Source: Ptychodera flava
Lineage: Eukaryota; Hemichordata; Enteropneusta; Ptychoderidae
Reading direction: 5' to 3'
DNA: 64,000 nt
NCBI RefSeq assembly: GCF_041260155.1
Contig: NW_027248279.1
Location: 2,537,764 to 2,601,763, forward strand
Shown here: positions 20,764 through 56,500 of the stretch, in pieces
Position numbering within the stretch: the first letter of the stretch is position 1
How the letters are laid out: each line of letters opens with the position of its first letter
Notes under the pieces: model-generated
What the model saw: the letters and a program-made list of their open reading frames with translations, nothing else
Told to the model about the DNA's origin: nothing
Databases searched by the model: none
Position numbers and translations under genes: made by a program

Positions 20764-20773
20764 ATCCGATCCG

Positions 20774-21378: not shown

Positions 21379-21388
21379 TATAGCAATT

Positions 21389-22502: not shown

Positions 22503-22616
22503 GTTCCTGTCCATGGTACTTGTAAGTACTTCGTAAGTTCCTGTCCATGGTACTTGTCAAGTACTACGTAAGTACTAACGTAAGTATTTACGAAAGTTAT
22601 TCAATAAGTACCATGG
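22494..22616. repeat. 34-bp tandem duplication within an inverted-repeat cluster
   Basis: A 34-base unit beginning ACTTCGTAAGTTCCTGTCC occurs at 22494-22527 and again at 22528-22561, overlapping the integrase stop. CCATGGTACTT in each unit is the inverse of AAGTACCATGG at 22606-22616, and further AAGTACT / AGTACTT palindromes lie between. It sits between the convergent integrase and kinase-exonuclease genes, so it could act as a bidirectional 3'-end hairpin. Confidence 0.7.
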
Positions 22617-23771: not shown

Positions 23772-23839
23772 TTTAGGATACTATATCATAGAAAAAATTT
23801 TTTTAAATATTTTTTTATTAAGATATATACGATAAGACA
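23772..23839. promoter_or_regulatory. divergent promoter region with TATATA/TATAG motifs
   Basis: A 68-base AT-rich gap between the kinase-exonuclease gene (minus) and the next plus-strand gene. GATATATACG lies about 12 bases before the plus ATG at 23840. TATAGTATCC lies about 10 bases before the minus ATG at 23771. It fits the pattern seen at other starts in this element. Confidence 0.5.
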
Positions 23840-24589
23840 ATGACAATCCTTTCTATTTCAACTGCAATAAAAATACTTGAAACCGGAGAAGAGAATATTC
23901 AAATCAGTGACGGCAAACTCATATTTGGTGAATCATTGGTAGATCCTATTATATATGTAGACAGTGAGCTAGAAGTGGTTTTCAACATCGGACCTAAATA
24001 TGGATCCAAAGATCCTGCTACATGTGATGAAATGTGTGTCCGTTGGCAACCGAGTCTTCAAAAGTTTACTGATTTAATAATATTCCGTACCCTAGGTGAA
24101 AGTTTCGATGCAAGCACTGCTAAAAGTTATGCTGCAAGCCTGGCCGCTCACTCCAAGAATACTACCGGATTTTACAATCCATCTAAAGTGTATCAGAAGC
24201 GAGGGAGCGGGGCGCAGCCAGTGGCGTATTTAAATTTCAGTTTAAAAGAGGGAGAGGGAGAGGGCTCACGATTTCGCTACATGTATTGATATGGTTCAAG
24301 AAATTGACTGCGGTTTTAAAACAGTGAGTCCATTGCCAGTCCGAGAAAATCCTGCTATTGTACCTCGTAATATCCGGAAAGGTAGTAAGATAGAATTCTT
24401 AGCATTTAAACCGCGCTTAAATAAACGTGCTCTTTCTTTCACTGTTGAGAGATTATATTTTGTGCTGCGCCTAATAAACCAGAAATTCAAGATGCGGAAG
24501 AACTAGTCGACTTAGAAAGATTAGGTGAGATATATAAACAAATAAATGCTGACAAAAATATTATAGTGGATTTTGATGACCTATCATAG
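23840..24589 (+). CDS. Polinton protein of unknown function, one or two frameshifts
   Basis: It starts 'MTILSISTAIKILETGEEN' with a first frame to 24289. Translation resumes at 24291 ('MVQEIDCGFKTVSPLPVRE') to about 24470, then shifts to 'KPEIQDAEELVDLERLGEI' and ends near 24589 with an acidic tail. The full product would be about 245 residues. Predicted beta-rich N-terminal half; no motif that I recognise. It lies between the kinase-exonuclease gene and the polymerase, so a replication accessory role such as single-strand DNA binding is possible, but this is position-based inference only. Confidence 0.5.
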
Positions 24590-24623
24590 AATAATTATTT
24601 TTTCATTTTAAAAATTTTTAGGA

Positions 24624-27600
24624 TAGTATATATCATAAAGATTATTATGCCAGTCAATTACATACAGCATTTAAGGGAGCAGTTTTACAAAAACAATTTC
24701 CTGAAGTCAAGCGAGTCAAGGATATCGGGGAGCTGGTGGATATTGAAGGTATGGTCCATTCGGAACGAAAGATGTACTCTGTTTATACCGAAATGGAAGT
24801 CAAATTATCGGATCCGAAAACTGGTAATACACAACCGCGTTCATTGTATGTTAAATTAAATGATACATACACAAAAGATGTAAGAGGATCGGGATCGGAT
24901 GTGGGGCAACAATTAATAGATCGCTACGATCGTATGCTTGATACAATTGAAAATGTTGAGGGTTCTGGTCTCGTTCTCGAGGAGATACTTAATTTGAAGT
25001 AATTCTAGTAGAAGTTTTACTCGGGGCTGGAACGCGTTCCAAAGGGGGGGCTGGCGCAGTCCAACTTCCCAGATGGTTAAAAAATAAGCATTGTGTTAGC
25101 GATCTGGTGCTACCTTCGGGCAGCGAGAACTGTTTTCAATACGCCATCGTAGCAAGTTTAAAGTTGGCCGACCCCGAGTTTCGTGAAAAGAAATGTGGTC
25201 AGGTAAGGAGAAAATGGAATACGTACGCCCCATTTATGGCTGACTACTGTTGGGAAGGTATTCCCTTTCCTACGCCCGCCGATCTGACTGTATTCAGGCG
25301 CTTCGAGCAGCAAAATCCAGGCATCAAACTTCAAGTATTTCAGATCTACGAAAATGATCCCGCTCCCCCGTCCGACATAACTGTGTTATATAGTGCCCAT
25401 TCCGAAGGTGAAGCCGATAGGAATCAAATAGCAAATATCTTACTGATAGTTGGCGAAGACGGCGGCCGTTCTCACTTCGTACCAATTACTGCGGAAAATC
25501 GCCTTCGTAATTCTCGTACTAATCGAAAGAATGAGCGCAGACGGAAGTGTATTTGTATGGTTTGTAAAAGAGGTTTTAAGTCAACAGAAGAATTAGAAAA
25601 ACATCAGGTATACTGTGGAACAGACACTGCCCAGCCAGATTTTCCTAAGGAAGTGTGTCAATTTGAAGGACATCGGAAGAAGGTTCCTTCTCCCTACGTC
25701 GTCTATGCAGATACTGAGGCAATTATTGAGAAGGGGACCGGCCGACACATTTCAATTTGTCTTTCGTATGTTATGGTGGAACGGGGTGGGGAGGATCGCG
25801 GGGACCTTCGGAACGAGGCCCGGGCCGACCCACTGTTTATGGTAAAAGAACATTCACAGGTCTCTCCTGTGTACAGACTTTCTAAAGGATATGAAAGAAC
25901 GGGCCGAGTATTATTCTAAATCGTATTATTGGAAAATAATACCGATGAGGGATCCTTCTAATTACCGGCGCGACGGATGTGATCCAGTCTGTATTGCATG
26001 TGGAGAGCCGGCAGGATACCGAGTAGTGAAGGAGGAGGCGACCTTCTATTGCGAAGGATGCCGGCCGTCGAGAACCATTCCTATCTACTTTCACAACCTC
26101 AAGGGATACGATGGTTCTTTTATTTTGAAAGAATTACATGAAATCGTTACCGAAGGAGATGATGGGGGTTCCGGACCAGAGCCTAAAATTATAGCTAAGA
26201 CGAGCAATGGAGGAATTATGGGTCTCTCGAAAACATTTATTTTTCACGCCTCAATTGTTGTTGCCGGAGGGAAGAGGGAGATAAAGAGACGTTTCTTTTC
26301 TATAAAGTTTATGGACAGTGCTCAGCTGATGATGGGGTCATTGGCGAAGTTGGCAAAAACTGTGCCGGAGGATGGGTGGACGGCGGCCCCACTTTCGTAC
26401 CCGGACATTCAAAGGGCGAAAGGTTTCTTCCCCTACGAATATTTAGACTCGGTTGACAGACTGGGAGAGGGGGAGCTCCCGGAGAGGGGGGAGTTTTATA
26501 GCGAATTGACGGAAGAGGGGATTTCTGAGTCTGATTACGAACATGCATTGAAGGTGTGGGACGAAGTTGGATGTAAGACGATTCGTGATTATATGGAATT
26601 CTATTGTGAGACTGACGTTCTACTTCTTGCAAATATATTCGAAAATTTCCGTGACACATGTTTAGAAGCATATAAGTTAGATCCAGCCCACTATATGTCA
26701 GCGCCTGGCTTGACATGGGATGCTAGTTACTTTACACGGGTAATAAGTTTAAACTCATTCAAGATGCTGAGCAGATGACTTTCGTACAACGGGGAATTCG
26801 AGGCGGCATCAGCCAGTGTAATATTCATTATTTACAGACAAATCATCCTGCTTACGGGAATTACGATCCAGAGAAACCAGTGACCGAAATAAAATATCTC
26901 GATGCAAACAATCTCTACGGCTGGGCAATGAGTCAACCAATGCCTACGGGCGGACTTCATTGGATGACGATGAAGAGTGGGAGGAATGGGCCGCCGAGGG
27001 GGGAGCGGGGGGCGGAGCCGGAGCGTGGGGACTTGGTTCCACCTTTCCACCAAGTTTTCTAGAAGTAGACTTAGAATACCCAGCCGAATTACATGAAGAA
27101 CACAGCGATTTGCCATTAGCACCGCATCACTATGAATTTCCGAGGCAGGGCGGTCGACTGATTACAAGTGTGATGGATAGAGAGAGATACGTCTTACACT
27201 ACAAGTTGCTGGAATTCTATCTTCGGATGGGAATGAGATTGAAAAAGATTTATCGGGTGCTTGCTTTCGATGAAGCTCCATGTCTCGCGAAATATATTGA
27301 CTTTAACACTAAAATGAGGACAAAGGGGAGGACAGATTTTGAAAAGAATTTCTATAAGCTGATGAATAATGCAATGTTCGGCAAGACAATAGAAGATGTT
27401 CGAAAGTACAGAGACTTTAAATTTGTTTCGGACTGGAACGGTACGGATAGTGGTCGTAAAAAGATTCAGAAGTATAATCCAAAGATGAAACATATAACTT
27501 TCATAACTTCCGAAGAGGATGGTGATTCCTGCGACAGTGCCCTACTGGAACTGAAAACGGATGAGCATAGATATGTAAAACCAGTTTTCATCGGCGCCGC

Positions 27601-28223
27601 AGTACTGGAACTTTCTAAGCTGCTTATGTATGAGACGCATTACAATTACTTTCGGGCCCAGTTCCCTGGAATACGATTAGCCTACATGGATACTGACAGT
27701 TTTGTTTACAGTGTACCGATCCCGGACCCGGACGTAACTTTCAATGATATAGTCCGAGAAGATGTTGAAAAGAATGGTGAGAAGTCTATATATGATACTA
27801 GTGGGATGAGCGGCCCCGCCCCCAACTTTCCGAAGAGTAATAAAAAAGTGAGATGAGTTGAATGGTGAACCTATTCTTGATTTTGTTGGCATACGCTCGA
27901 AAGTGTATGCTTTTCGAACTCCAACTTCGGAGACGAAAAAAAATAAAGGGGTGAAAGATGTTTGTGTTAGAAAACATTTGAACTTTGAAGATTATAAAGA
28001 TCTGTTTGAAACTGGGAAGAAGCCGGAGCCGGCACAGTTTGTACAGTTTGTACGGAAAAAGGCTGGAGAAATCCGTAGTGAAAAGCGTAGTAAAATTATG
28101 ATGGCGCCAAATGATATCAAACGTGTGCAGCTATACAATCCAGACACAGGCGAATGGCTGAATGGCGATGGCTGCAGAAACATGGCCGATAGGACGGACG
28201 ACGGGTCATGGTTAATATTGTAA
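24624..28223 (+). CDS. POLB: protein-primed family B DNA polymerase, at least five frameshifts
   Basis: Segments on three frames form one polymerase of about 1,180 residues. The N-terminal part (to 25002) ends 'GSGLVLEEILNLK'. The next (25107-25885) has a C2HC finger (CMVC...H...C) and exonuclease motif I 'YADTEAI' (25710). The next (25891-26741) has zinc-ribbon Cys pairs, motif II 'NLKGYDGSF' and motif III 'YCETD' (26614). The frame from 26741 holds polymerase motif A 'YLDANNLYGW' (26901). The frame from 26957 holds motif B 'YKLMNNAMFGK' and motif C 'YMDTDSFVY' (27689). The last (27858-28223) carries the thumb-like end. Breaks lie near 25050, 25885, 26741, 26957 and 27850. There is no clear ATG in the first frame; an ATG at 24647 lies in another frame. 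It would replicate the element from a terminal protein. Confidence 0.9.
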
Positions 28224-29473
28224 AGACTTTAATCTACTATTTTCAATAGAGACCAGGGCATCACTGATAACATAAATGTGGGCAAATATATTATCATTGT
28301 GAGCGTCATCGCCAACCCACGCGGTATCTTTCTTCAGGAACTCAAGTTGAATTCCGTCCTTTGTGTTCATTACTTTTAAACCATTTCCATGAAACTCAAT
28401 ATCTTTAAAACTACGCAGATCGATAAACAGACAGAATTTATTCTTCAAATAATCGGCCTCATCTATATCAATTTCACACCAATCTTTATCTTCAGCAAAA
28501 TACCGTCGCACCTCTCGCCAAAATTGTCTTGGTATCATCTTCTGAGCGTACACTTTATTTGCAATGCCTTCGATTGATACAGACACAGATTCAATGGATG
28601 GGTTAAAGAAAAGTTCACTGTTCAGTTCTGACTGATTCTGATTTTAGTGAAGAGTATAGCGATACCTCTAATGCTATGTCGTGGTACATTTATATTTTCA
28701 TTGATAACCGTGTCCGATTCTTTGAATGGGATTGTTCTAAAATAATGTATATGCTCGTAAAGGTAACTTTTTCCACCGTTGTAATAACCAGCAGTTGACC
28801 TCGCGAGATCGAGGTCAGAAATTGTCTCGTATTCCATTTGAATGTTTTTTAATTTATAATTGGTTGTAACAACCTGATTACTGACAAGTAATTGGGGGGC
28901 GGGTGCAAGCGTAATTTCCCATTCAATATGACTCCCTAACGCTTTTGGATATGCAACTCCATGACCTGTTATTAGGGGGTGAGTGAGACGAATAGCATAT
29001 TTTGTTTTATATGTGTCGAAAAGTAACTTATCGCCCACGACGTTTTGATCTGCATCGGTCGAACCGCTTCTTAATTTTCTTAGATTTTCGTTCTGAATTC
29101 CGTACAGTGTCATGTTCGTTCTCTCCTTTTTATGTTTGAAGAGATCGCGATAACATTCAATAAGGTTATATTTATTCAAATCGAAAAGTGTCTGACCCTC
29201 AAATGTGAGTTTCATACGCTCCACCAAATTTTTTGCAACATTTTGAACTACTCGGTTATATTCATCTCCCATTACTTCGAGATCAAAAACCAGGTCGAAA
29301 GTATCTGGAACTAAGAGTACTCCGCTTTCTAACTTTGGACATCGTATGATAAGTGTCTGGCCTGGATCTGCCTCACTTGGATTATGAGCAATCACGTGAT
29401 GAGTTCTTTCTGACTTCGTTCCATTCGGTATTCGGTTGGTGAAAGTCGGTGATAATGTTCTATCGTACCCCAT
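28212..29473 (-). CDS. MCP: major capsid protein (double jelly roll), one frameshift
   Basis: It starts at ATG 29473 ('MGYDRTLSPTFTNRIP'), about 15 bases after CTATATAC. The first frame carries 'VVQNVAKNLVERMKLTFEG', 'LIECYRDLFKHKKERTNM', 'YEHIHYFRTIPF' and 'AILFTKI', and stops at 28622. A one-base change near 28630 moves the frame to 'SELFFNPSIESVSVSIEG' and the second half, ending 'SRLKSLQY' at 28212. Order and motifs match the hexon-type capsid protein of Polintons and adintoviruses; about 418 residues. The 3' end overlaps the polymerase 3' end by 12 bases, as convergent genes. It would form the icosahedral shell. Confidence 0.85.
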
Positions 29474-29524
29474 TTTTCGTGTAATGTATATAGTAGAAGA
29501 AAAAAAAGAAAATAAATCACATCT

Positions 29525-29892
29525 TTACGTAAATATTTCTGTCTGCCTGAAAGATAAATCGATTGCCTGGTCGCGAATCAATCGAAGGACCCAATATTCT
29601 TGGAGATGATGGACTTCCATTTCATCATTGTCAATCTCCTGAAAGACGTTTATGAATTCTAGTCGCTTAAAGAAGTTAGTCTTTTGACATTCCTTCACGA
29701 AAGCTAATATGTTATGATAAAGATTATCATCTTTGAGTCGGACACCTGGATTTGCTCGAAGGATATGTCGATTTACCCTCCGAAGTTTGCACCACACCAA
29801 TTCGACAGAGAAACCAAACAGGTCTTTATTTTTAAAAAAGAAACTTTGCAATATTCTTTTCACCAAACATGTCGATGCCGTAGGGGTGTCAT
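29525..29892 (-). CDS. small Polinton protein of unknown function
   Basis: A 113-residue open frame extends upstream without an ATG as 'IYDTPTASTCLVKRIL', so the start codon may have been lost to an indel near 29900. The protein is basic and helix-rich ('WCKLRRVNRHILR', 'FFKRLEFINVF'), with no catalytic motif I recognise. I considered the missing maturation protease but see no His-Asp-Cys pattern. It sits between the capsid gene and the coiled-coil membrane protein gene, all on the minus strand, which suggests a virion role. Confidence 0.5.
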
Positions 29893-29895
29893 ATA

Positions 29896-31128
29896 TTAAT
29901 ACATAATTTTATTTATAATGACTAATGTTAAACCAGTTAAAAATATCCATAGCTGTTCTCCGACAAATCCGACAACCGATCCTGCTGTTTTTAATAGAAA
30001 ACTGACAAGGGAGCCGATTAGACCGGGTATTGCAGCAGCACTTTTTGCGGCCAATGTTTTTAACCATTCACCAAATTGCTTTACAATTTCTTTCGCTTTT
30101 GTATATACTTTGGGCGGACCTGAACCAGACCCGCCAGTTCCTGCTCCCCCCTCCTCCTCCTCCCCCTCCTCCCCCTCCTCCTCTAGTCACAGCCAAGGCA
30201 ATTGTTGATATTGTCATTCCAAGGGCAGTCAGTATTGCAGCGATTGTTATACCATTTCGTTTAAATAATTCTGTCAGCTTCAGTCTCAGTGATAATTCTG
30301 GATCAGAAATTACATCACGAAGAGACCTAGTCGACGCCAGTCTTTCATGTGCATCACTAATCTTATCATGTTCATATTTAATTCGATTGCAATTTTAGCT
30401 TCGCTCGTTATGAGTTCAGTTAGTAGTTTTTCAGCTTTTTCTTTTTCATGGCTGTGTTCTTAAGGAATTTCCTTTAACTGTTTTTCAACTTCTCTTTTCT
30501 CTAGCCTTATTTTAACTTTTTCATTGTTAAGCTCGCTAATACGCATATTCGCAATCTTTAATTCATCATTAATAGCTCTATATTCGGGGTTTTCATTATT
30601 CCATTTTTCGATTTTATTTTCGATAGTACGTATTTCATCGGCATTATCGCTAAAATTTACTCGTAAATCTGTTATTCTATCTCTGAGTCGTCCAATGTCG
30701 TATGGTTTCAGTCTATCGGCCGGCCTTTTCAATAACATTTTTGCTTCATTATCAGTCAATTCTGATACAAAATCTGGATCTATTCCTAATATATCTTTTT
30801 TAAATTCTGCAGCTCCCTTACCTTTTATTGAGGAGGGCATTAAAGACTTCGTGCCTTTATTTGATGTCAGCCTAGCGTCTCGATAATACAGCTCTCCATC
30901 CCTAATACTAGCATTCGTATGCATTAATTCTCGTTTATGCGCATCAGTAATCCTATTACTATCTAAGTATTGGTTAGCCATTATCTCTGTAATTTCTCCT
31001 CTCTGTCTAATCAACGACTCACCTGCGGGTCTGTCGCTTGAGACGGCCTGGGAAGAATCGGCTTCTGCAAAGGTATCATCATCGAAAAAAGTTGTTTCAG
31101 CAGTAGCGTCATCATCATCATATAACAT
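29896..31128 (-). CDS. long coiled-coil membrane protein of the Polinton, frameshifted
   Basis: The likely start is ATG 31128 ('MLYDDDDATAE'). An acidic N-terminus is followed by 'ITDAHKRELMHTNASIRDG', then a coiled coil ('IRTIENKIEKWNNENPEY', 'ISELNNEKVKIRLEKREV') to about 30460. Later frames give 'YEHDKISDAHERLA', 'LFKRNGITIAAILTALGM' (membrane span), a run of about twelve Gly codons, 'GPPKVYTKAKEIVKQFGEW', 'KSAAAIPGLIGSLVSFLLK' and a last hydrophobic segment ending at 29896. Breaks lie near 30470, near 30390, and in the poly-G tract near 30150. I know the same layout from many invertebrate Polintons; the role is unproven, perhaps attachment or internal membrane. Confidence 0.7.
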
Positions 31129-32794: not shown

Positions 32795-35620
32795 AAAGAT
32801 ACTGAAACTTGGATGCACGCATTACAAAAGTTCTCTGACCTGATTCCGTTCGAGGAAGAAGGAGGTTACGCGAGATTGCTGCGCGTGTGGGATAATCATG
32901 AACATTCATTAAAGGCACAAAAACATGTCTGCAATGTACGTCGGAACAGAGTTCTCAAAATATTTAAAGAATACGATACAAATGAAATAGAAAATACGTT
33001 GCTTAACGGAAAGAACATCAGCGGCTTTGAAAAGATAATTACTCGGCGTATCAAAATCTGCGTTCAGTAGAATCCTCAATGCTCTTTTCTGCATTTTATA
33101 CACCCAGTCCATGTTGTTCTTACTGGTATTTCCCCAAACCATCCTACAATAGTCAAGAGTTGATTGAATTAAACCATAATACAGAATTTTTCTAAGGTGA
33201 AAAGGAATTAGTTTATGTAAGAGTCTTAGTAGACCTATTCTCTGACTCAGTGTGGTGCACATATTGTCAATATGCTTATTCCAAGAAATCACATCATCAA
33301 TAGTCACACCAAGGATCCTCTCAAAATTAACACAGGAAATACTTATATCATTTATGACAACATCAATTTTGTCGTAACGACGGTCAACATTGTGTAGCTT
33401 ATGCCGCGACTCAACTAACATAGCCTTGGTTTTGTTTGCATTAAATATTAACATACCGTTGCTAGTTATCCAATTGTTAACAGCAATAGCGTCATTTTGA
33501 AGTAGATTGTTGACTTGGGAAATCGTAAAGCCAGATGACAGAAGAGTCTGGTCATCGGCGTACATGTCTAAATGAGAGTTAGAAGTTACAGATAATGGCA
33601 AATCATTGATAAAGATGGTAAAAAAGCAAAGGGCCAAGTATCGACCCTTGCGGTACTCCAACTGATACTTTCTGTCTTTCAGAAGTCTTACCCATATGAC
33701 ACACAATCTGTGAACGTTCAGAAAGGTACGATTTAAACCAATTTAGGTTTTTATTATTCAGTCCATTCAGATAAAGTTTCTTTAAGAGTAACTCATGGTC
33801 AACAAGATCAAACGCCTTAGAAAGGTCGAGAAAAAAGAACTCCAGAAAGATGACCATTGTCAATATTTTGTAATAATTCGTCGCACATACGTAAAAGGGC
33901 CGTTTGACAGGAATGGTGCTTTCTGAAACCAGACTGTGTCGTATGCAGCAGACTCTTATCGGTCAGAAATTTATACAAATTACAATGAATGTGATTCTCT
34001 AAAATCTTAGATATTGCTGGGAAAATTGAAATTGGCCTACAATTTGACATTTCATTTACATTACCAGTGCCCTTATAAATCGGAACAATTCTTGCACACT
34101 TGAAAATTTCAGGAAAGGTTTCATTATCGATACTAAGATTTTACACTTTGGTGAGATAAAAAGAAATAACTGGAGCACCCACACGTAATAACTTAGCATT
34201 AACGTTATCGACACCTGTGGATTTCGCCTGTGATATATATAGTGCCCTTGTAACAAACTCTGAGTCAGAAGACAAGTGCGGAATATTAAAACTGCATCAT
34301 CAAGTTTTCCACGAAGATGATCTTCTAACAGTGAGATATCAGTGTCTTTGTTGACGGTAACATTTAAAGTATTTGAAATATTAGAAAAGAAAGAATTGAA
34401 AGCGTTCACAATAACAGAAGGGTCAGAAACAAAATACCATAAACTAAAATCGGAGTAGTATTTTTTTGAAGGTTTGACAATGCTGTTAAAAATATCCCAG
34501 AGAGATTTTGCATTCGAACCTTTCTGTCTAAACTCTTGTAAAAAATACTCCTGTTTTGACTTTTCAATCATATGGACAACTTTATTCCTTGATTGCCTAT
34601 AAAGAGATAGTTTGCTAGCATCAGATTTTGCTTGGTTAAGCAAAGCATCTCTCTCATGTATGGCATTCAAAATATCGTCGTTCATCCATGGCGGTTGTGT
34701 AAAACGTCGAAAACGTTTTTCAATAAATGGAGCGTAAATGTCACAAATTTGTTAAAAATGGTAACCCAAATCCTCATTACAATATTTACATCAGTCGCAG
34801 AATCAACTAAACACCACGACGCATGACGAAGGTCACGGAGAAAAAGACTATAGTTTATGTTGGTAAACGAACGAAATTTGACCGTGAGATGAGAAGTTAC
34901 ATGACTGCTGATAATGCGAGTTTCTTTTACGTACCATTACAACAGGATAATGATAAGAAATTCCAATTTCAGGCACAAAACGCTAGCAACATTTTCTCGA
35001 TTGGAAGTATAGATATGATCAATACATGTCTTAGAAATTGGTCTTGTAGGAAGCGAAATAAGTTGAACTAAGGACAAGTTACTCAGCGAATTGTAAATAT
35101 AGTTACTCTGGCCGCTCTCCGTGAATAAATCAATGTTGAAGTCACCCAATAAGTAAAGTTCTTTACGAGTATAGAAACCCTTTTCCAAATTCGATTCAAT
35201 ACAAATATCAATGCTATGAGAGGTACCAGGTGGTCTTAGTCTATAAACACCAGCAACTAAAAATTTATTACTTTTTGGAGGCTTGATCTCAAGCCACGAG
35301 ATTTCCAAGACATCAGATTCCAGGTCAGACCTTCTCGTGTAACAAACATTACAACGAATATAAGCCAAAAGACCACCGCCCTTTTTTCCTTTCTTATTTT
35401 TTCTTTCAATTTGAAAACCGGCAATTTTAAAATCATTGACAGAGTTCGTATTACTTAAAAAAGGTTTCAGCAAGAAACAATACTTCCAATGAAAACGTTT
35501 TGTCAACAGAAAGATAATGAGTAATCTGATCAATTTTGTTTGTTAAGTATGGAACATTCCAATATCCAATCTTTAGACCATTCGAAAAGCTTGTCCGAGA
35601 AGCGTGTGTGTTCACAGAGT
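32795..35620 (-). pseudogene. LINE ORF2: AP endonuclease and reverse transcriptase, frameshifted
   Basis: The endonuclease begins near 35590 ('GLKIGYWNVPYLTNKID') and continues with 'KKGGGLLAYIR', 'ELYLLGDFNIDL' (GDFN catalytic motif) and 'CIDHIYT' (DHI motif), to about 34950. A linker follows (34056-34685, 'RNKVVHMIEKSKQEYF'). Reverse transcriptase parts come next: 'NCRPISIFPAISKILENH', '[14 protein letters not shown]', '[16 protein letters not shown]', '[14 protein letters not shown]' and 'DMYADDQTLLSSG', the last being the YADD catalytic box (around 33570). The C-terminal part with 'YYGLIQSTLDYCRMVWG' ends in another frame near 32800. At least four frame breaks, so no active enzyme. Confidence 0.9.
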
Positions 35621-35659
35621 CCACGGCTTGAGCTTCCTCGCCGAGACTCTAACGTTGCC

Positions 35660-37190
35660 GAAAGTTCACACAGTGTTGTGCTTTGTGACCCGGAGACTAC
35701 AAGCCCAGCAGTTGATACGGATTCCATGTCTGCAGACTCTCTCAATATGACCAGATTCGCCACACAGATAGCAGTATACCGCCCTTCTAGATTTCGCTTG
35801 ATCTCTATATCGTTGAGAATTCGAGTGTCGACGGTTGTAGACATTGTTGTGCTTACTGCTACCAGATGTAAAGCGCCTTCCCGCAGACGGAGATTTCGTT
35901 GTGAAGCAGCAGCTGGAGAGATTTGCATTTGTGAGGAGCCTATCACCGTGACATGCAGAATACGTTAGGTGCACACCATCACGCAGTAACAGAGACGTGA
36001 CATGTCAACTGAACCATCCCGAAATCGAAAATTAGCATCATTATCAATAAATGCAGCGGCAAGGTCTCCATTTTCAGACCAGAAGGTCAGGATTTGACTG
36101 GTCAATCCTGGGACAGATGCTGAATAGTAGTTTTCTCAAGCACAATCTTCTTTGTTTCATTTAAAAGTAGATCATAGTCAGCAGTCAAGTTTTCAACAGT
36201 GAGGTCTTGTGAACTGCAGTCATTTCCACCTACTTCTAAAAATAACCTCCTTGAAAGGATCGTTGCCAGAGTATTTCGTGGCGATGAAGTGACGCATTCT
36301 ATTTATGGTAGCACCTGGCAGACACTTGACAATAGTGTCAGTTGAATTGCTTTAAAAATTGCGTAATAACGAATCACCGATGAACAGTATTTACATTTTT
36401 CTGGCGGCCAGCTGCAGACTGGTCCTCGTAGGCTGTTGAGGAATTTGTACGCGATCGAATTGATGGAGATTGGGCAGAGTGTCCGTTATCTGCGCTGTAA
36501 TTAGAAATGGAGTCATTGTTCACATCGGTATTCGTATTGCATGGCGTATTGAGTTCCTGTCGCATGGACTCGCAGTTAGATTCAAGTTCATGATATTTAT
36601 TTCGAAGTTGTTCATTTTCAGTCGTTTTCATAGAGAGCTGTCTAAAATCAGAGTTTACGGCCTGAAGTGAAGAAAGTTCAACTCTGAACTTGGCCTGTTC
36701 GTTCAACATTTCAGTTAGTTTCAATTCAGTGGACTCAACAATTTTGTGACAGTTCTACATTCAGGACACGGCCAGAAGTACTGCTGCGTTTCATCCAGCG
36801 AAGATGAAACCAATAAAGAACAGACTACATCTTACCATTTCACCCGTACTACTGCGGTCGAATCTACAGAATTCCGTACACAATGGTGGATCGGTATCTT
36901 TCTCCTGAACACGATTGCTGCGTTTTTTCCCTTTGTTATTTTTCCATTGGTTTCATCATTTTAGTTCACAGACGATGAAGATCGCAGCCGAAGTCTAGAC
37001 GTAGTTTCGTGTTCATGGTTATCCAGTCTTTCTTTAGCGATAATAGCGTCTAGCCTTTCCTTAGCATTATTGTTCAAAGCATTTCCGATATAGTGGCATT
37101 TGGATTTGATTTTGTCCATAGGAAGTTGGGGTAACAGAGATTGCATCTCACCTTCAAGTCTCTACACATAAGGCCATTTGCTGAACTTTT
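35660..37190 (-). pseudogene. LINE ORF1: coiled coil, SGNH esterase and CCHC knuckles, frameshifted
   Basis: Reading right to left on the minus strand: an N-terminal frame (36961-37190) with charged helices; a Cys-containing patch 'WPCPECRTVTK' near 36760; a coiled coil ('LRNKYHELESNCESMRQEL') in 36374-36724; an esterase-like domain in changing frames with 'IGDSLLRNF' (36370), 'LEVGGND' (36225) and 'RDGVHLTYSACH' (35970), the GDS, GGND and DxxH blocks of SGNH hydrolases; and two CCHC knuckles, 'CYLCGESGHIERVC' and, after a frameshift, a second with 'SPGHKAQHC'. Esterase-bearing ORF1 is known from CR1/L2-type LINEs. Several breaks make it inactive. Confidence 0.75.
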
Positions 37191-44296: not shown

Positions 44297-44567
44297 AACG
44301 TTCACCCTTTCTATCGGGCTTTGCCAATCATCGTGTACTGTAGTGTAGTGCAGTGTACCGTAAGCGTACGCAGCATTCGAAAATGAAATCTGCCGAACAG
44401 ATATCTACGAATATGAAAACCAATAAAGAACTTAACAATGACCACCAGGAAATGTCTCCAAGCTTGATTACTGTCATTTTCGAATGCTGCATACGCTTAC
44501 GGTTTTACTGCACTACACTACAGTACACGGTGATTGGCAAAGCCCCATAGTAAAAGGTGAACCATCC
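44297..44567. mobile_element. foldback MITE with ~90-bp inverted arms
   Basis: The left arm (about 44297-44391) contains GGGCTTTGCCAATCATCGTG, GTACTGTAGTGTAGTGCAGT and GCAGCATTCGAAAATGA. The right arm (44473-44567) is its inverse, with a few mismatches, ending GATTGGCAAAGCCCC. The spacer is about 80 bp with no coding sense. Likely a non-autonomous element. Confidence 0.8.
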
Positions 44568-46503
44568 TTCGACCACTTACTGAATTCTACTTCGGTTGGT
44601 TTGCATCAACGATACAATCAAGGTTCAGAGAATCTCCTTGAGCAATATTGACGGTGTTCATTGTTCGTATTTCGGAGGATCTGTTCATATAAGAAGTGAA
44701 CGAACTGTCAATCATCATTTGTCTTACTGTAAAAATACGTGTGTACACGTTAAGCATTGCTATTATTTAAAATGACAATTCTATCAGCTCCTATACTATG
44801 TGTATCGAGTGAAGTGCATAACTGAAGTATCTTTTAGCAGTTTCCGACACTTTTAAATATAATAATAATTAATATAAGTATTATATAGAAATAATAACAC
44901 GAATAATAATAGGTTCAATTTCTGTGAAAATTTCATCATATGGGTATTTTGGGTCGAAAAGACCAAATATGATATCGAATTCACTGCCCGTGTTTCCATG
45001 GTAACCATTTTAGGGGTTGAAAATTTCAGTTTTCTAATATCCCATGAAACGTTACTTTGATTGATATGAAAATTATCTATTGGGGGAATTCGGGTCATAG
45101 AACACAAAAACCAGACTTATTTTAATTTTTCGAGTTGCCATGGTAACTATTTCCAGAACAATGTCATATTATGGCAAATTTCTGTGCCAGTTTGGTTTGA
45201 CTGCATTTATCTAGCTCGTCCCAAAGTGACGGACGCATCTTTCAACCTTTCAGCTTGGTGAAAAACGCATTTATTGATTCGCCAAAGGCCTGTGGATTCG
45301 CTTTAATTTTTGCACAAGTGCTACATGGACATAGGAAAACTTCGACTCACCCTAGCCCTCTCGATTGTTGAATACAACCACGGTCCATGATGAGAGTTCT
45401 CGAATCAAAAACTGTAGCCATGCTCGAATACAAATATCTTCTCATTTTCAAAGTCTGTCACCCTTTTTTTCAAAGTTTGAGAAGGGCGGTATTTCCATCT
45501 GAATGATTGAACGACGTGAAACGCAAAATTCCATCGCATATGTTCCGGCAATATGTGCACTGTACAGTAGAAATACTGTATACGCTGCAGCCTATGCAGG
45601 TACGTATATACTCCACAAAATGGCCACAGACGGCGTGAACTTTCTGAAAGGATTTCCTAAACGTCCTCCTTGGTACCTTAGAGACTTACATGTGATGTCC
45701 TGGAAAGTATTCTCTGCAGTAATTCCAGTTTCTGTTAACATGCACACATTTTATAGCTGAACGACATGATAGCGCGAGACAGTTCTACGGTACTATACAC
45801 TCTCTTTCTCGCGCTCCCAGGCTCAATTGCGCATGCTCATACTGGCAGACTACGTCACCTGTGTTGCTTCCGGCGCAGCCGACTTGGCAACTTAGGTTGA
45901 GCAAACAAATAACGAACACCCGAACGCACTCTCAGTGATGGCGGCCATCGTATTGTGTGCATACCGAGACGATCGCTCGCCGTGCGCGTGTTGTTCCTCG
46001 AATTCTGACCCATAATCATTTATAAAAATGCATTCAAATGTGATAGTGAAAGCTGTTCTCAATTAATAAGGTGGCATACTCAGCATAGCTGGATGTTTAT
46101 CGCTAGTTTACCTTTGACCTCGCGATATTTGCAGGAGAAGTTTCTTAGCACGAACAACTTGATAACATCATACCCTCCATGATAACATAAAGCATGGCCG
46201 TCTGTAAGTATTTTCATTAATGTGTTGTGTAATTTACGAGGTTCAGATTTTAAGTAAATCAATTTTAACAAGATTGAAACCGATTTAACCGTGTCCGCAG
46301 TGATTTAATCTGTACATTTCATGCCGTGATTTGTCATGGGTTATTTTTATGCGTGTGGGTTTTTTATTTACGTCCATATGTGCGTTGCAGTTGAGCATAG
46401 TTTTTCGGACCATCACGCATGTCTCCCTGGTAACGGGTTTGTTTACACACTGGCATATTTTCTTGCGCCTTTTTCAATCGTCTGTTGGCCTAGACTGTGA
46501 AAA
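44568..46503. other. no gene recognised; upstream flank of the RAG1-like gene
   Basis: Open frames here have no domain. GTTGCCATGGTAAC at 45134-45147 is a second X-box-like site. A GC-richer stretch at 45780-46000 (TTGCGCATGC, GATGGCGGCCATC) may be promoter-like for the gene that follows. Confidence 0.4.
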
Positions 46504-47576
46504 TGTCATTCGAATTTCATGCTCGTGTGCTAAAAAAACGGTGTCGTATTTGTGCACGGAAAATAAATGGCACAAGTTATCCATGCTCCAATTTTATCGT
46601 TGAGTTAAAGAAGTGTTTCAGAGTACAGTTTTAGTGAAGACATTCTAATGTTCACCCGTCCAATTTGTGTTGTCTCTGTAAGAGAGTCATTGCTTCATGA
46701 CAGCAGGCAGAGAGCAATAACAAAACCTATCGACCAGGGACACACGTAGTGAAATGGTCCAGACACTGTAGAGTACGGAGATGTGCGGTGTGTGATGCAT
46801 TGTGTAAGGCAGGAAAGAAAAAGAAAGACAGTAAAAACAGGGGCAGACCAAGTCAATACCAAGGCAGTGACATTTCTGGTATCACTGGCAAGGAGACAGG
46901 AAAGACGGGGAAACTACAGAGTGAAACTCATGGCAGTACAAATCTAACAGCAGCTGTAAAGGAGAGGGCAGGAAAAAAGATGAGAAAGATTCATTCCCTT
47001 GCAGAGACAGAGGTTCAATGATCTCATTGAAGAAATGGAGTGTCCCATTTGCAAAGAGATAATAGATGGACCAATACAACTTTTGTGTGATGGACCACAT
47101 GTGTTTTGTGCTGAACGTTTGTGTCAGTGGTTGCAAGTTTCTTCATCCTGTCCTGTGTGCCGTCTCTCTATTATGTGTGAATCTATTGAAAGTCTCCCAT
47201 TGCCTTTGCAAACATGCTATCAAATGCCACAGTCACATGTGATTATGGGAATGTCGGTTGTAAGTCAGTTGTGCCACTGCAAAGATCTGCAACACAACAC
47301 GGAACGGTGTGTTTACCTGTCCATTGCTGGAGACCACTGCTTCTCGTTAGTGAGCCCATTTCCATCAGAAGCCACCATACTCCAGTCCCCGTTCATGACA
47401 CAATCAATACCAAGACATCAAATGGTGAAACATCAAGGGATAGGCAAAACAATATATGTGCAGTGAAGGCCGCAGAAATTGTGTTGCAGAATGTATCAGC
47501 GGTATATATGCTGCCACAGTATGAAGAAATGGCAACAACACTTGTCAAGAAAAAAAATAGAAGCAAACAGAAGTGA
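46504..47576 (+). pseudogene. RAG1-like N-terminal zinc-binding region of the transposase gene
   Basis: It starts 'MSFEFHARVLKKRCRICAR'; after two in-frame stops near 46618 comes 'NVHPSNLCCLCKRV', like the RAG1 HP-x2-x-C-x2-C segment. Then come 'WSRHCRVRRCAVCDALCK' and 'KNRGRPSQYQ'. The RING, in the frame from 46999, is C3HC4: 'CPICKE', 'CDGPHVFC', 'LCQW' and 'CPVC' (C15, C18, C30, H34, C37, C42, C51, C54 of that frame). The second finger is 'CDYGNVGCKSVVPLQ' in the next frame (from 47214). In RAG1 this region has ubiquitin ligase activity and dimerises; that function is only an analogy here. Confidence 0.7.
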
Positions 47577-47897
47577 TGATAGTTTGATAAAGGTTAAAAC
47601 CAAGGGCCAGGTGAGTTTTTTACCAGCATTACTCTTGCTGATCTATACCCACATATCAATATACAGTTAGATTTTGGAGTAAATTCTTCTGATAAAGCTA
47701 TCATGGAATATGATAATTTGTAAATTTGTATTTGTAATAACATTTATTTGGTTTTGTAGTACATGTGTGACCTGGTAGTGGTTCAACAAATTAATTTCAT
47801 CAAGTAATGAGCTAGTCCAATTTCATGAATTTATCACCCACATATACTTTTGAAAGATAAATTTGGTTTTTCAATTTTTGGTGTGATTTTTTTTCAG

Positions 47898-48215
47898 CCA
47901 TTGTGTTTAACATATACACCAAAGCCACGAAAAACAACCTCAGAAGCTAGCACTAGGACAAGACGTCAGAGGGTGTTGCAGTTAAGTCAGAGGAGAGACA
48001 TTGTCAGTGGTGGTGATGCGATGCTGCAGCTGAGTGAGAGGAGGTGAGACACCAACAAAAGGACAAGAAGGAAAATCCTCCAGATCTTGGGACTCACTCC
48101 TGACATACCTTTAGGTGCTGGCCTTCACTTGAAAGTTGCTATGGGAACAACATGGGCTGCCAAGAGGAAATTACGGCGTTACTTCAAGGCATGGCATGTG
48201 AATATTGGAAGTGAG
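47898..48215 (+). pseudogene. transposase exon with basic linker and one in-frame stop
   Basis: Bounded by TTTTTTTTTCAG on the left and GAG|GTATG on the right. It encodes a Lys/Arg/Ser/Thr-rich segment ('TYTPKPRKTTSEASTRT', 'RRQRVLQLSQRRD'), a TGA at 48045, then 'TPDIPLGAGLHLKVAMG' and 'AAKRKLRRYFKAW'. It probably corresponds to a DNA-binding region before the catalytic domain. The single stop breaks an otherwise open exon. Confidence 0.65.
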
Positions 48216-48578
48216 GTATGTTATGCAGGTCATTTTCCCCCACACTCATCAAGGTCACTGTCCTTCTTGACCTCACAACCATGAATTTAATAAGTCATGT
48301 TTGGAACTTTCTTGAAATTTAATTAGTTGTGTAAGAGAGAGAATTTTAGAACAGTAATTAGCATGTCAATAAAAGTTCTAGATTGTTCTTATATGCTCTT
48401 ATATAAGCACATGAGTATTAATATTGGGACAGCAGGCTTGCAGTCAGACTTTTGGGATTGTGTGCACACTCTATTATGATCATGTAGAGAAAGACTGTGG
48501 ATAAGTAATCTTGTTATCACATATTACTGAATATAAGTGTTACTGTTGTTTTTGCATCTTGCTCATATTTGTCTTCAG

Positions 48579-50703
48579 GTCTGCAAACTTACCCGGCATG
48601 GTACAATACCTACCAGTGAAATTTGGATAAAGTTAGGTGGGGACAAGGGTCAGGGAACCCTGAGAATGGTTTACCAAGTTGCTAACATCAGCAATCCAAA
48701 TGTAGCAGATAATACAGTGATTTGGAGTACATTTGCAGCACCTGATTCCTATTACAATTTAGAATAGCTTTAGCTGTTAACAGAGGTCAGGTAGACAAAC
48801 TGGATGGCACAAAGTAGAAGTAAGTCTAAACATGCATACTGTGTTTTACTAAACAATGAACAGATTGTACCATATATCTTTTTGGTACAATATTTGGAAC
48901 TTAAGATACATACATATTGGTTATCCAAGTTTAATACATGCATTATACTGCTGATCCAAAATCTGAAAACAATGTGCAAATCTGACCAAACTTATGCAGC
49001 ATAAATATGATACTACATTAAATAGTACAAAAGGCAAAGTTGTTTTCTTGCATGTACAAAATGCATTGATGTGTAGAAACATGGGCATTAATTTAGAATG
49101 GTGTGGACAATTGTCTTACATTCCACTTTGATTTATTTCAGGGACAAGACACTATTAGCACGGATGATGGGAGATTATGAGTATCTGGCCAAGAGTTATG
49201 GATTGTCTGGACCAAATGGTATGAAATGTATACTTGCATGTTATGATTTATACGTAAGAAAAGTTGAGGCACTGACAGGACAGGCAGTTTATTGTGTACA
49301 CTTCAGTTTTACCTATGATTTATATGTGTACGTCCTTGACCTATCAGTTTGCAATATGTGCGACTGTTAATAATCAGCATGCATTGTGTATGATATGCTG
49401 TAGAACACAATTATGATAATTGGTTGTAGTTTTTCGTTGACTTAAGACATTCACAGCTAACATTGATTAGTCAGATAAATTTAAAGGAAGGGGTACACAG
49501 TGGGTCAGATCTTGATAAATATTTGCAAGCTATTGACAAATGAATAGTTGCCATGTTAAATAAACATGTAATGTTTGTTTAGCCTGTATCATGTGAGAAC
49601 ACCCACAGATAACCTGTCTAGCAACCTGAGATCTCAGAGGGTCTCCTTCATCTTTGAAAATGGCATATTGATACCAGAAGTAAGATCATTTTTGTGATGA
49701 TAAGCAATAACATTGTCAATCTCAAGTGCACAGTCATGTCTATGCTGCATTTTCAGAATTTTGGCTTGTGCACATTTGTAGTGCAGTCATTTCCAGACAA
49801 CACAGTGTTTATCTTTGTTTTCTTAGATATCTGAAGCTACAGACGTAAAAGCGAAACTGCCAAAACAATGTGGTTTTGTAGTTTGCGGTATTGACCAAGC
49901 TCTGCAGTCATTTAGTGTTGGACGTCATTCTTACCAGGGGCAGGCATTCATCGGAAATCATGTGAACAAGTGCTGTAAAGTATGTGTTTTACAACTGTAA
50001 ACTGTTTTGTTGCTAAAGTCATTAAAAGGTTCAGTATTCTGCTTGTCAGGATTTTCAAGCTTTCAGTGTCAGATTTATTGTGTGTTATATATATACTACA
50101 GAAGATGTATTTCGTCTACATTATTTTGACGTACTTTCAGTGAAACAACTCTGTTTGCTTCTTTGAAAGAAAGTTATCATATCCTTCTTTTTATTTTTGT
50201 GTTTCAGGAAGAAAACATTCAAACGTTGTGCAAGAGCGTCATCAGGACCACAGCAAGAATATGCCCATAGCTGAATGAACAGGCTGCACACATTTGTGGT
50301 CTGTATAAGCCAATATTTTCAAAATTTGCAGCCTGCCATAATCTTTAGAGTACAAGCAATAGAATGTCAGATGAATATATTAGCATTCTCAGTTCAAACA
50401 TATCACATTTAATGGCATATTACAGAGAACACTTTCCTAATGAAGTGTACCCCCAAAATGCATATGTTAGAAGATCATGTCATCCCTCAGATTGAAAACA
50501 CAGGGTTTGGCTTTGGTTTCTTCACAGAACGGTGTAGAGAGTATCCATCATGAGATTAGGAAGGGAATGGACCGGTATAGTAAAGTACCTGGCCATAATG
50601 GTTTAAAGAAATTAGAACTTATGGTAAGGGAGCATCATGTGATGACCAATTCAAGTCATGTGAAAGTGCCAAAAACACAAAGGGGTTCATACAGAACCAA
50701 ATA
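48579..50703 (+). pseudogene. catalytic-domain exons of the RAG1-like transposase
   Basis: Exon 48579 begins after GTCTTCAG and holds 'IWIKLGGDKGQGTLRMVY' (first catalytic Asp candidate) and 'NPNVADNTV'. Exon 49142 holds 'RMMGDYEYLAKSYGLSG' (second Asp) and 'CILAC'. Exon 49583 is short. Exon 49827 has 'QAFIGNHVNKCCK', ending at GTATGT. The last exon (from 50208) has 'FSKFAACHNL', then 'MLEDHVIPQIENTGFGFGF' and, after frame changes, 'GVESIHHEIRKGMDRYSKV' (Glu candidate) and 'LKKLELMVREHHV'. The D-D-[C..C]-E order matches RAG1/Transib- and hAT-like RNase H folds. Stops near 50243, 50345 and 48766 make it inactive. Confidence 0.65.
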
Positions 50704-50984
50704 AGCAACGTGAAATAATGATGGCCATAGTGATAACAGTAAAGATAAATCATGATAAAATAAACATGTAAAGAACAAATTAATTAAGTCAATAACAAAC
50801 CAATATGTAAATAAAAACATTGAAATCTGGTTCTTTCTATGAATCATATTTTTACTAAATTGATGCTTGTATTTTTAGTCCCCAAGATACCGTCCGTGGT
50901 CATGTCCGAGCGTGTGTCAGTGTGTGCGTTTGTCCGTCCATGTATCCTTCTGTTCACGCAGATATCTCAGAGATACATGGAGCG
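50704..50984. other. 3' flank of the transposase gene
   Basis: AT-rich sequence with no recognised gene. It may contain the 3' end of the RAG1-like element, whose terminal repeat I could not identify. Confidence 0.35.
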
Positions 50985-51595
50985 ATTTCATTCAAACTTG
51001 GTACGAGGATTACTTGATATGTCATACATATGCACGTCCAATATATATACATATGCATGATCCAATGTGGCCGCCATGCTGCCATTTTATTACAATTTTT
51101 TTTATGTACAGAGCCATAACTCCTACATGTTTCAACCGATTTTATTGAAAGTTAGTACAAGGACATTGACCTTCATCATACATATGCACATCAATTTGTT
51201 TCACAACATTATCCAATATGGCTGCCATGCGGCAATCTTATTACAATTTTGTCATGTACGGAGCCATAACTCAGGCATATCTCAACCGATTTTATTCAAA
51301 GTTGGTACAAGGACATTGACCTATGTCATACATATGCATGTCAATTTGTTTCATGATATGATCCAATATGGCCGCATGGCAGCCATTTTGTTACAATTTT
51401 GACATTGACTTATGTCATACATATGCATATAGATTTTTTAGACAGTAAGATTAAATATGGCTGCATGGCTGCCATTTTGTTACGATCTTTTCATGTACAG
51501 AGCCATAACTCAGACATCTTTCCACCAGTATCATTCAGAGTTGGTATAAGGACATTGACCCATGTCATACATATGCACATTGATTGTTGAACGGC
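50985..51595. repeat. tandem repeat, unit ~150 bp, about 3.5 copies
   Basis: The phrase GAGCCATAACTC occurs at 51111, 51261 and 51500. Around it recur CAACCGATTTTATT, TTGGTACAAGGACATTGACC, ATGTCATACATATGCA, ATCCAATATGGC and GCCATTTTGTTACAATTTT, in the same order in each unit. The first two full units are 150 bases apart; the third spacing is expanded by a partial copy. Confidence 0.85.
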
Positions 51596-53789: not shown

Positions 53790-54576
53790 TCAGGGACTTT
53801 GGCCCTATGTTTTAATTTTGTCTGTATTTTCATATTGTATTTAAAATAAAGGTATTTGATCATTTCAATTTGTATTTTTTTTCATTTTCTGTGTACCTTT
53901 CCTTTTCGTTTCTTATATTTTTTGTTTAGCTCTTTATTTGTCCCATTTTTAAAATGCAACTTTGTGGCATAAGTTACTTTTGATATTCAGAGAGTTTGTA
54001 AAAGATGTTTGCCCGAAACTTTGTTATCGGTACATGTAATTTATTTGAGTCTTGTCACTTCAAGAAATAAAAAAAATGTTTTATTCTATATGCACGTGCC
54101 TGTTTTGATCATTTATGTTATGGTTTGAAGTAATTTCTAATAACATTACAGTTAATTTGCCATTGTGCTGTTAAAACAATCACCGTACAATACAAATAAG
54201 GCAATAATACATTGATTTCTGCCTATATGATGAAAAAGGTGCCTCTCTAATTTTTGCCGTTTGTGGCACTGTTCTGTGGCTTCCAATTGAATGTGACCCA
54301 TAAAGTTCGCACACAAGTTAAAAGTCTGGGCCTGCTGGGTATCGCTTTAAACTGCTTAGTGTCACTTTTCCGACAAGCATTTAATTACTCCTTGGCCTAA
54401 TGATGTCCCTCTCTCCGTACAGTATTATGTATAATTCTGCGCTGCACGTACAACAATTAGAAGTCACCCCTTTTGACAAAATTAAAATAAACAACACCTC
54501 TTTTTCAGAATTCGCAGAGCTTCAATGAACTAGTGTTATTACATTTCTATATAATACTTATAGCCCCTAACTTGTA
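53790..54576. other. no gene recognised
   Basis: AT-rich spacer between the inverted-end element and the Ig gene exons. Confidence 0.4.
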
Positions 54577-54582
54577 ATAATA

Positions 54583-54618
<36 letters not shown>
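54577..54618. repeat. (AAT)n microsatellite
   Basis: About a dozen AAT units directly next to the end of the Ig exon, inside the following intron on the minus strand. Confidence 0.95.
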
Positions 54619-54890
54619 CACATTGAATGATAAGTTTTGTTGTTGATACTGCTCGTCCTTTCCTGCCGTCATACAGCTCATTAGTGGCTTCACATCGATA
54701 TTGCCAGCTTGCTGTCTCTTTGTTTGCTCTATACTCAAAATTGGTCCCGGTGAAACTGAATTCCCACGTGAATCAAACCATTCGTATGATGGTTCCGGGT
54801 TACTGTCAGTTCGACATGTTGCTTCAAACTTGTCGTTCTCCGTGATTATTCCGTCATTGGTTGACGAAATGGAAATCGGTTCTGGAGGAT
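54614..54890 (-). CDS. Ig-domain exon (C2-like), one frameshift
   Basis: The exon follows a minus-strand acceptor (GGTCGACAG) at 54891 and starts in phase 1. It encodes 'PPEPISISSTNDGIITEN', 'FEATCRTDSNPEPSYEW', the first Cys and Trp of an Ig fold, and 'SVSPGPILSI'. A frame change near 54707 leads to 'SWQYRCEATNELYDGR' (second Cys) and 'STTKLIIQ'. The end at about 54614 would use a GTGATT donor. It is the third exon of an Ig-superfamily gene read right to left. The shift may be decay or a sequence error. Confidence 0.65.
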
Positions 54891-55209
54891 CTGTCGACCA
54901 ATGTATGAATGTAATTTTAAAATTGCTATGAAAATTACACGAGATTTAAGATATTTGAGTGCGGGAAGAATAGGTTGTTAATATAAGTCATCAATTACCA
55001 GTGAGGAAAGTTATGTATTGAAAGCACACGTGTGCTGTCGCCTTACGACAACAATAAGTGATTAAACACAGGTTATTGAAAGCCTTATAAATAAGAAATG
55101 CCACTTTAAATTTATTCCATGTATACATGAAAATGATTTCTCTGATCTATCATGATGTCCCTTTTCAGTTTAATTATGCAGTATGATGTAATTATATTCC
55201 AAAACCTAC

Positions 55210-55494
55210 ATTGAACATTAAAAGACATGTTATATTTGCATGTCTGTGTATTTAGATCAGCGTCGTCATTGTATCTGCAGTCGAACACATCACCAATGGC
55301 TGACTTCGTTATCTGGGTGTTGAAAATTAGAGGAGCTTGGCCAGAAACGTTCGAATTTCGTCCATTGACAGTCCACTTTACATCACCCGGTAGGACCTCT
55401 GTATTTGAATAACATGTCAATGTAATGTTGTCGCCACTGACAACTGTATTCTCCGGACCAATGTTGTCAGCTGAGCATGTCATGGTCTCGTCTG
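55210..55494 (-). CDS. Ig-domain exon
   Basis: It starts after the acceptor TTTTGCAG and ends at the donor AAT|GTAGGT, so both splice sites are consistent. It encodes 'DETMTCSADNIGPENTVVS', 'NITLTCYSNTEVLPGDVKW' (first Cys and Trp) and 'SAIGDVFDCRYNDDADLN' (second Cys), ending 'KYNMSFNVQ'. A clean Ig fold of about 95 residues, phase 1-1. The only unbroken Ig exon of the three seen. The gene is probably a host cell-surface or secreted receptor; start, signal peptide and end are not in view. Confidence 0.75.
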
Positions 55495-56180
55495 CAAAAC
55501 AAATTCAAACGGATTAGTGTTGAGGTGTCTTATTGCAAGGCGGCTGTGACGTCAACATTTCAAGGGCCATGTAAGCCTTTACATTGCGGAAATACATTTT
55601 GATCATGTTACTGAAAGACAATGCAAGTACATATCATTTAGGCATACAGTATATCGTGAAGCTTCAAAGATGATATTTTTCATGTTTATAATCTTCCAAA
55701 AGAGCAACCTTGACAATGGTTTTCAACACAGTTTGAAACAAATAAGAATGCTATGATGATTTTTTTAAATCAATGACATTATTGTAAATATATTTAACTA
55801 TTAGCAAAACGATAAACAACTAAGACATGTAGTGTTATCATTTCCCATAGGCCCTGTAAACGTCATTATAATTACCAATAGAAACTGCTTAGACAATAAA
55901 AAGAATCGCTTTAGTTAGCTAACATATGGTCAACAAGAGTTGTATGGTCTTCAAGTTTTATTAATGTATTGTTGCTTTGGGTGTTTACCGTCAATTCCTT
56001 TTGTACGAGTTTACAAGTTTCGTTTAACTTATGAAAATTTCGACACTATTCACGCTGAGGAAAATGAATTTTCAATCAACCGTTAACTTTGTCACAAAAC
56101 ATGCGCTTTAACATCTATTATCTAAACTTCCTTTTACGGCCAGCATCGCATTGTTACCGAAACAGGATGTATGCACCCAC

Positions 56181-56500
56181 CTACAATTGTCAGTGTAGCT
56201 GAGTAGTTGACTTTGGTTCTCCTCCTATGGCTTCACACATCCACTGCCCGGCGTCAACATTTGCATCAACGTTACGTATGGTTAAATCGTATTCTCCGTT
56301 CAAGTGGTTACCGCTGATCTCACAATTGCTACAGCTTTCTCTGTCCAAGTAAATGCCAGCTGACACCAATCTCTCCTGTCCTTGATGGTTTATGTGTCTC
56401 CATCGCGGCCAGTTCTGTAGCTCTCTTTCCAGCCTGCATGCAAATCTCACCGTGGCACCGCTTGGTACAATCTTATCAGTAGGCGTCTTTCTCCACTTTA
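56181..56500 (-). CDS. Ig V-like domain exon, one frameshift near the end
   Basis: The acceptor GTGCTTCCAG ends at 56501, and the donor is GTAG|GTGGGT at 56181. It encodes 'KWRKTPTDKIVPSGATVRF', 'ACRLERELQNWPRWRHI' (first Cys and Trp), 'CSNCEISGNHLNGEYDLTI' with an extra Cys pair, and 'DAGQWMCEAIGG' (second Cys). In the last 40 bases the useful frame changes to 'TKVNYSATLTIV', so one indel lies near 56218. It is the most upstream Ig exon seen of this minus-strand gene. A relic of a paralogous exon lies at 8225-8292. Confidence 0.7.

Follow-up and report, generated by a model that had tools for sequence, protein, structure and literature searches.

A decayed transposase gene, very probably of Chapaev type, with a RAG1-like N-terminus in the hemichordate Ptychodera flava

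The window analysed here is a stretch of 64,000 nucleotides from Ptychodera flava (contig NW_027248279.1, positions 2,537,764 to 2,601,763, assembly GCF_041260155.1). Direct reading of its frames reveals a transposase gene on the plus strand, which begins with a Met codon at 46503 and ends with a stop codon at 50702-50704. Read 5' to 3', it encodes KRCRICAR, HPSNLCCLCKRV and RRCAVCDALCK, followed by a basic patch with GRP, the C3HC4 RING and one more finger. All motifs quoted in a preliminary description of the locus were recovered on the plus strand, and its coordinates are correct to within one base. The same description had proposed that a RAG1-type N-terminus and a DDE transposase follow each other in a decayed relic that apparently contains introns, and this part of it is supported. 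The region 46503-50704 (+) reads as one dead, apparently multi-exon transposase gene, in which zinc fingers of RAG1 type are followed by a RING, another finger and a DDE core. In all probability, it is the dead remnant of a DNA transposon of the Chapaev type whose transposase carries a RAG1-like N-terminus.

To 5.8 billion proteins, the read-through of the relic showed eight matches at an expectation value (E) of at most 1e-3, and further searches with an alignment and with residues 490-620 of the relative P0002 added only four proteins (P0009-P0012), giving 12 relatives. The top relative, P0001, belongs to P. flava itself (E 6.5e-104, 27% identity over 69% of the read-through). The named sources, all of them invertebrates, are P. 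flava (three proteins) and Glandiceps talaboti, both hemichordates, the crinoid Antedon mediterranea, a Branchiostoma hybrid, Patiria miniata, Acanthaster planci, and the entry Em0026g61a, which we take to be the sponge Ephydatia muelleri. The other two P. flava proteins are 82% and 71% identical to P0001, and the three would be compatible with a multi-copy element.

Two profiles were built from relatives only, with the relic left out: a core profile of 12 proteins and an N-terminal profile of seven. Both were run against 2800 raw stop-to-stop open reading frames (ORFs) of at least 15 amino acids (aa) from all six frames of the whole window, such that unjoined frames were scored. As the relatives had been found with the relic read-through, their recruitment is not wholly independent. 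Ten ORFs matched the core profile at E ≤ 1; nine of them range from 2.9e-26 to 0.0024, and the tenth has 0.28. The N-terminal profile matched seven, five in the relic (1.8e-17 to 0.028) and two elsewhere (0.14 and 0.47). The 15 matches in the relic all lie on the plus strand within 46494-50701 and follow the order of the profiles, and 14 of them have E values between 2.9e-26 and 0.028. The resulting features are:

46503-46631 (+): opening part of the transposase frame, with CRIC as the first zinc pair, RAG1 C1-like; N-terminal profile E 1.7e-4 (ORF 46494-46631); two stops follow at 46632-46637
46638-46697 (+): second zinc pair, HPSNLCCLC, RAG1 C2-like; N-terminal profile E 0.028, short of the HMMER inclusion threshold
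46701-47018 (+): third zinc pair, W-H-C-C, RAG1 C3-like, then the basic/GRP stretch; N-terminal profile E 0.0029
46984-47463 (+): C3HC4 RING frame (RING proper about 47017-47199); N-terminal profile E 1.8e-17; Pfam RING models 8.7e-6 and 1.5e-5, slightly under their cut-offs
47190-47573 (+): post-RING finger and linker, in a frame other than that of the RING; N-terminal profile E 4.4e-6
47898-48044 (+): exon 3' of a putative intron at about 47611-47897, first part, with AG acceptor, ending at a stop; core profile E 5e-8 (ORF 47829-48044)
48048-48215 (+): remainder of the exon begun at 47898, up to a GT donor; core profile E 1.4e-9 (ORF 48048-48281)
48579-48764 (+): exon with the candidate first catalytic D (GGDKG); core profile E 2.9e-26 (ORF 48537-48764); Pfam DUF1280 on 48582-48764
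49142-49244 (+): exon carrying GDYEY, the candidate second catalytic D, together with the Cys pair, which is C(3)C in this copy; core profile E 6.1e-9 (ORF 49092-49367)
49827-49979 (+): exon with the GQAFIGNHVNKCCK block; core profile E 1.4e-11 (ORF 49827-49997)
50208-50492 (+): C-terminal region that precedes the H(4)H motif and is interrupted by two stops; core profile E 0.28 (ORF 50130-50267), 0.0015 (50271-50345) and 3.4e-5 (50349-50492)
50440-50550 (+): H(4)H motif KMHMLEDHV; core profile E 1.2e-9 (ORF 50413-50550)
50528-50704 (+): C-terminus with stop codon, preceded by NGVES, the EQG.E-like motif with the candidate E; core profile E 0.0024 (ORF 50471-50701)

The read-through contains seven stops within frame, of which one lies in a segment that no profile supports, and extra stops are present at points where the reading switched frame. 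Four frame changes within exons separate profile-matched frames, and a fifth was set by eye. Putative introns were likewise placed by eye from GT/AG signals and the limits of the profile matches. Positions of about 241-295 and 414-589 of the core profile have no match in the relic, and these two stretches are lost or too decayed. With its stops, frame changes and missing core stretches, the relic cannot yield a working enzyme.

The Pfam model DUF1280 matches the relic at 48582-48764 with E 1.5e-8 and 35 bits, above the curated cut-off of 25. PMC3985635 assigns DUF1280 to Chapaev transposases and groups it in the same clade as RAG1. Because of this assignment and of a match above cut-off, the core of the relic is most probably Chapaev-type. 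That the transposase is of a different or unknown kind was not borne out; a Chapa domain and RING on Chapaev had, moreover, been published in 2015. When the relic is aligned with its relatives, GGDKG, GDYEY and NGVES are the candidate catalytic D, D and E, whereby the EQG.E-like last motif spans a frame change. The Cys pair of the relic is C(3)C and its His pair H(4)H, while the Cys pair of the relatives is C(2)C in ten of the 12. For the Chapaev core, C(2)C and H(3-4)H are described between the second D and the E (PMC12730594). Among the relatives, searched by pattern, the first D is present in 12, the second in 11, C(2)C in ten, and H(4)H and the E motif in nine each; P0010 and P0006 are short, P0009 is without the Cys pair, and P0008 is without the C-terminal motifs.

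Pfam DUF1280 was found in all 12 relatives and RAG1_imp_bd in five of them at E ≤ 0.01, four of which exceed the curated cut-off. These four carry both domains on one chain above the cut-offs and include a hemichordate, a crinoid and the presumed sponge protein. RING models score above cut-off in three relatives (P0001, P0010 and P0011), and P0001 is the sole one to combine RAG1_imp_bd, RING and DUF1280, each above its cut-off. Several relatives start downstream of the N-terminal region.

In a living element, the apparently multi-exon gene would give rise to a cut-and-paste transposase. Its core would bind the element ends and cut and join DNA by a DDE mechanism, with the Cys and His pairs presumably holding a zinc ion. 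The N-terminal fingers and the RING may, as in RAG1, act in dimerisation, in contacts with proteins or as a ubiquitin ligase.

A profile of six relatives searched against PDB ranks RAG1 first with 3.8e-27, in a single stretch covering residues 101-382 of a 1040-aa RAG1 chain, presumably that of mouse. By this match, the family shares the N-terminal C1-C3 fingers and RING with RAG1/RAG1L. The zinc-finger chain of RAG1 by itself reaches 1.2e-12, those RAG1 chains that begin near the RING 2.5e-12 to 3.4e-10, and the top RING other than RAG1, UHRF1, 6.7e-10. Thus, it is the C1-C3 fingers, not the RING, that make the RAG1 distinction. The P. flava protein used singly gives the same order, with RAG1 at 2.8e-11 and TRIM31 next at 5.7e-8. 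The zinc-finger part of the relic by itself has RAG1 as its sole match, at a non-significant E of 0.095. The expectation that the N-terminus is closer to RAG1 than to generic RING/TRAF proteins therefore holds for the six-relative profile (3.8e-27 versus 6.7e-10) but not for the relic alone, whose fingers reach RAG1 only at 0.095 and whose RING leads to BRCA1/TRIM. As a side observation, residues 14-71 of P0005, a Chapaev-type N-terminus, weakly match zf-AD (E 0.0079, under the cut-off), a hint that fingers of the RAG1 type may be related more widely to zf-AD.

Since the N-terminus is of RAG1 type, the locus could be a direct RAG relative, namely a RAG1-like gene of ProtoRAG/TransibSU type that has decayed. 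The core profile of 12 relatives has amphioxus RAG1L (PDB 6b40, identified as such in PMC7204232) as its top match and the only one in PDB at E ≤ 0.1 (E 0.014), and both have the C(2)C and H(4)H pairs and the E in common. Homology of the relatives' cores with the RAG1 core is suggested, though not proven, by these matches. However, DUF1280 occupies the relic core and all 12 relatives, for which no RAG1 core family was listed at E ≤ 0.01, the presence of that model in the library being unchecked. The similarity itself is weak: comparison with the RAG1 core by hhalign gave P values of 0.042, 0.017 and 0.0025 (probabilities of 1, 3 and 12%) for three alignments, whereas a human RAG1 core reaches 270 bits with amphioxus RAG1L. 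Furthermore, a Kelch (RAG2-like) match was absent from the nine flanking ORFs tested. We therefore consider a direct RAG relative highly improbable.

Still less probable is a host RING/zinc-finger gene, such as a TRIM/TRAF-like pseudogene, lying beside an unrelated transposase relic or invaded by it. The RING of the relic does score best to generic RINGs (BRCA1, TRIM, RNF126), but the order of the relic is collinear with the profiles, and the four relatives with RAG1_imp_bd and DUF1280 on one chain contradict a host gene unless those annotations are chimeric. A hAT or other non-CMC transposase with a RAG1-like N-terminus has a practically negligible likelihood. Its only basis is that the preliminary description named hAT as a profile to try; no hAT family was among the Pfam matches listed at E ≤ 0.01 for the 12 relatives, nor at E ≤ 1 for nine pieces of the relic (with filters that drop most weak matches), and DUF1280 matches in its place. 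All three candidates were hence rejected on the DUF1280 matches, the weak core likeness and the one-chain relatives.

Several observations weigh against a Chapaev-type transposase with a RAG1-like N-terminus. The Chapaev label derives from what DUF1280 is assigned to and from the order of domains in the literature, not from comparison with a Chapaev-labelled sequence. RAG1_imp_bd and RING occur together above cut-off in just one of the 12 relatives. The RING frame of the relic matches generic RINGs, with RAG1 absent among the best 60 of 70 matches, and the joined relic N-terminus ranks BRCA1 first (3.5e-7) and places BRCA1/TRIM and others above RAG1 (0.077). The Pfam scan of the relic pieces reports no RAG1 family. 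The match to amphioxus RAG1L sums two stretches, one aligning the Cys pair and one the region from H(4)H to the E, and taken singly both fall short of significance (independent E values of 6.1 and 15), and a core-only profile of four relatives (A4) found no transposase and no RAG1 or Transib in PDB at E ≤ 10. Finally, inverted-repeat lists and a scan for CAC..GTG pairs revealed no convincing terminal repeats or target duplication around the relic.

Chapaev elements have terminal inverted repeats starting with CAC and a short target duplication of 4 bp. The inverted-repeat lists comprised the 25 longest of 43 pairs and the 25 longest of 966 and had no control. They contain several weak flank-to-flank pairs, for example one of 27 nt at 70% (45754/51596), an A+T-rich one of 16 nt at 94% (44762/51731), and one of 24 nt at 75% whose right arm at 51091 lies inside the tandem repeat at 50983-51483. 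None resembles transposon ends, and they were rejected as such. The scan yielded 55 CAC..GTG pairs with at most 6 of 16 mismatches, none with a duplication of 3-5 bp; 20 shuffled controls gave 23-78 pairs, which indicates no excess. The ends of the element may be lost. A blastn search of 45400-51000 against the window returned only the query itself. In viral contigs, 27 stretches fitted the search pattern and none was confirmed.

The Chapa domain, named after Chapaev, is described by Kapitonov and Koonin (2015) as a truncated RAG1 N-terminal part, which in two Chapaev subgroups is followed by a RING (PMC4411706). In the relic, the Chapa zinc domain and RING are recognised through the relatives' similarity to the RAG1 N-terminus and through their profile. 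The relic fits the published description; the combination of Chapaev core, RAG1-type N-terminus and RING is already known, with the relic as a further, dead example. Like those elements, it has RAG1-type fingers and then a RING on a Chapaev core; it differs in being dead and in being without two core stretches and recognisable ends, and the likeness is one of description. P0001 shares with the relic the order RAG1_imp_bd, RING and DUF1280, carries the motifs D, D, C(2)C, H(4)H and E, and, in contrast to the relic, is annotated as a single intact protein. RAG1 and amphioxus RAG1L (ProtoRAG) resemble the family of the relic in a collinear N-terminal region and in paired Cys/His with E in the core; they differ in that the core likeness is very weak and no RAG2-like gene was seen in the flanking ORFs tested. 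N-RAG-TP of Aplysia, compared by description only, is also a mobile element with sequence like the RAG1 N-terminus, but is depicted in PMC8355894 as wholly RAG1 N-terminal-like sequence.

The relic adds to the cases in which a transposase other than RAG bears an N-terminus of RAG1 type, and its relatives occur in hemichordates, a crinoid and, presumably, a sponge. Against the RAG1 chain, the same six-relative profile reached E 7.7e-20 for the N-terminus and 0.0025 for the core, with one RAG1 sequence per part. As RAG1L proteins are reported to vary more in their N-terminal region than in the core (PMC7204232), joint descent would lead one to expect a core at least as alike as the N-terminus. 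Kapitonov and Koonin prefer a common ancestor with later losses (PMC4411706). Since the N-terminus is far more alike than the core, fusion would explain the contrast better. We tentatively raise the possibility, itself rather doubtful, that the zinc-finger/RING N-terminus is a module moving between transposon lineages, and that RAG1 gained it by fusion from a Chapaev-like element rather than together with the core from a Chapaev/Transib ancestor. Counting against such a swap, Cys-rich fingers score high over short stretches, each part was compared with a single RAG1 sequence, and many protostome RAG1L proteins are reported to keep the RAG1 N-terminus substantially conserved (PMC7204232). The preliminary description fairly asks about the origin of the RAG1 N-terminus, but this dead copy does not settle the matter. 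The relatives, rather than this copy, are suited for testing fusion against descent.

Further elements lie in the vicinity. Upstream of the relic, nested inverted repeats at 44308-44553 have arms of 47 nt and 30 nt (94% and 97% complementary) and are possibly a small foldback element or one resembling a miniature inverted-repeat transposable element. Directly downstream, a degenerate tandem repeat with units of about 150 and 89 bp occupies 50983-51483. The region 15900-29900 contains Polinton/Maverick-like ORFs with Pfam matches to an integrase core (21365-22027) and an A32-like ATPase (20764-21378); its DNA polymerase B was recognised by eye only, the ORF 26822-27856 having no Pfam match at E ≤ 0.001. 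A LINE-type retroelement is located on the minus strand at 32900-36750, with a reverse transcriptase above cut-off (33603-33962) and an endonuclease/exonuclease-like ORF below cut-off (34937-35542). Immunoglobulin-like ORFs map to 54500-56500 on the minus strand, and two of the three scanned show weak Ig_3 matches under the cut-off.

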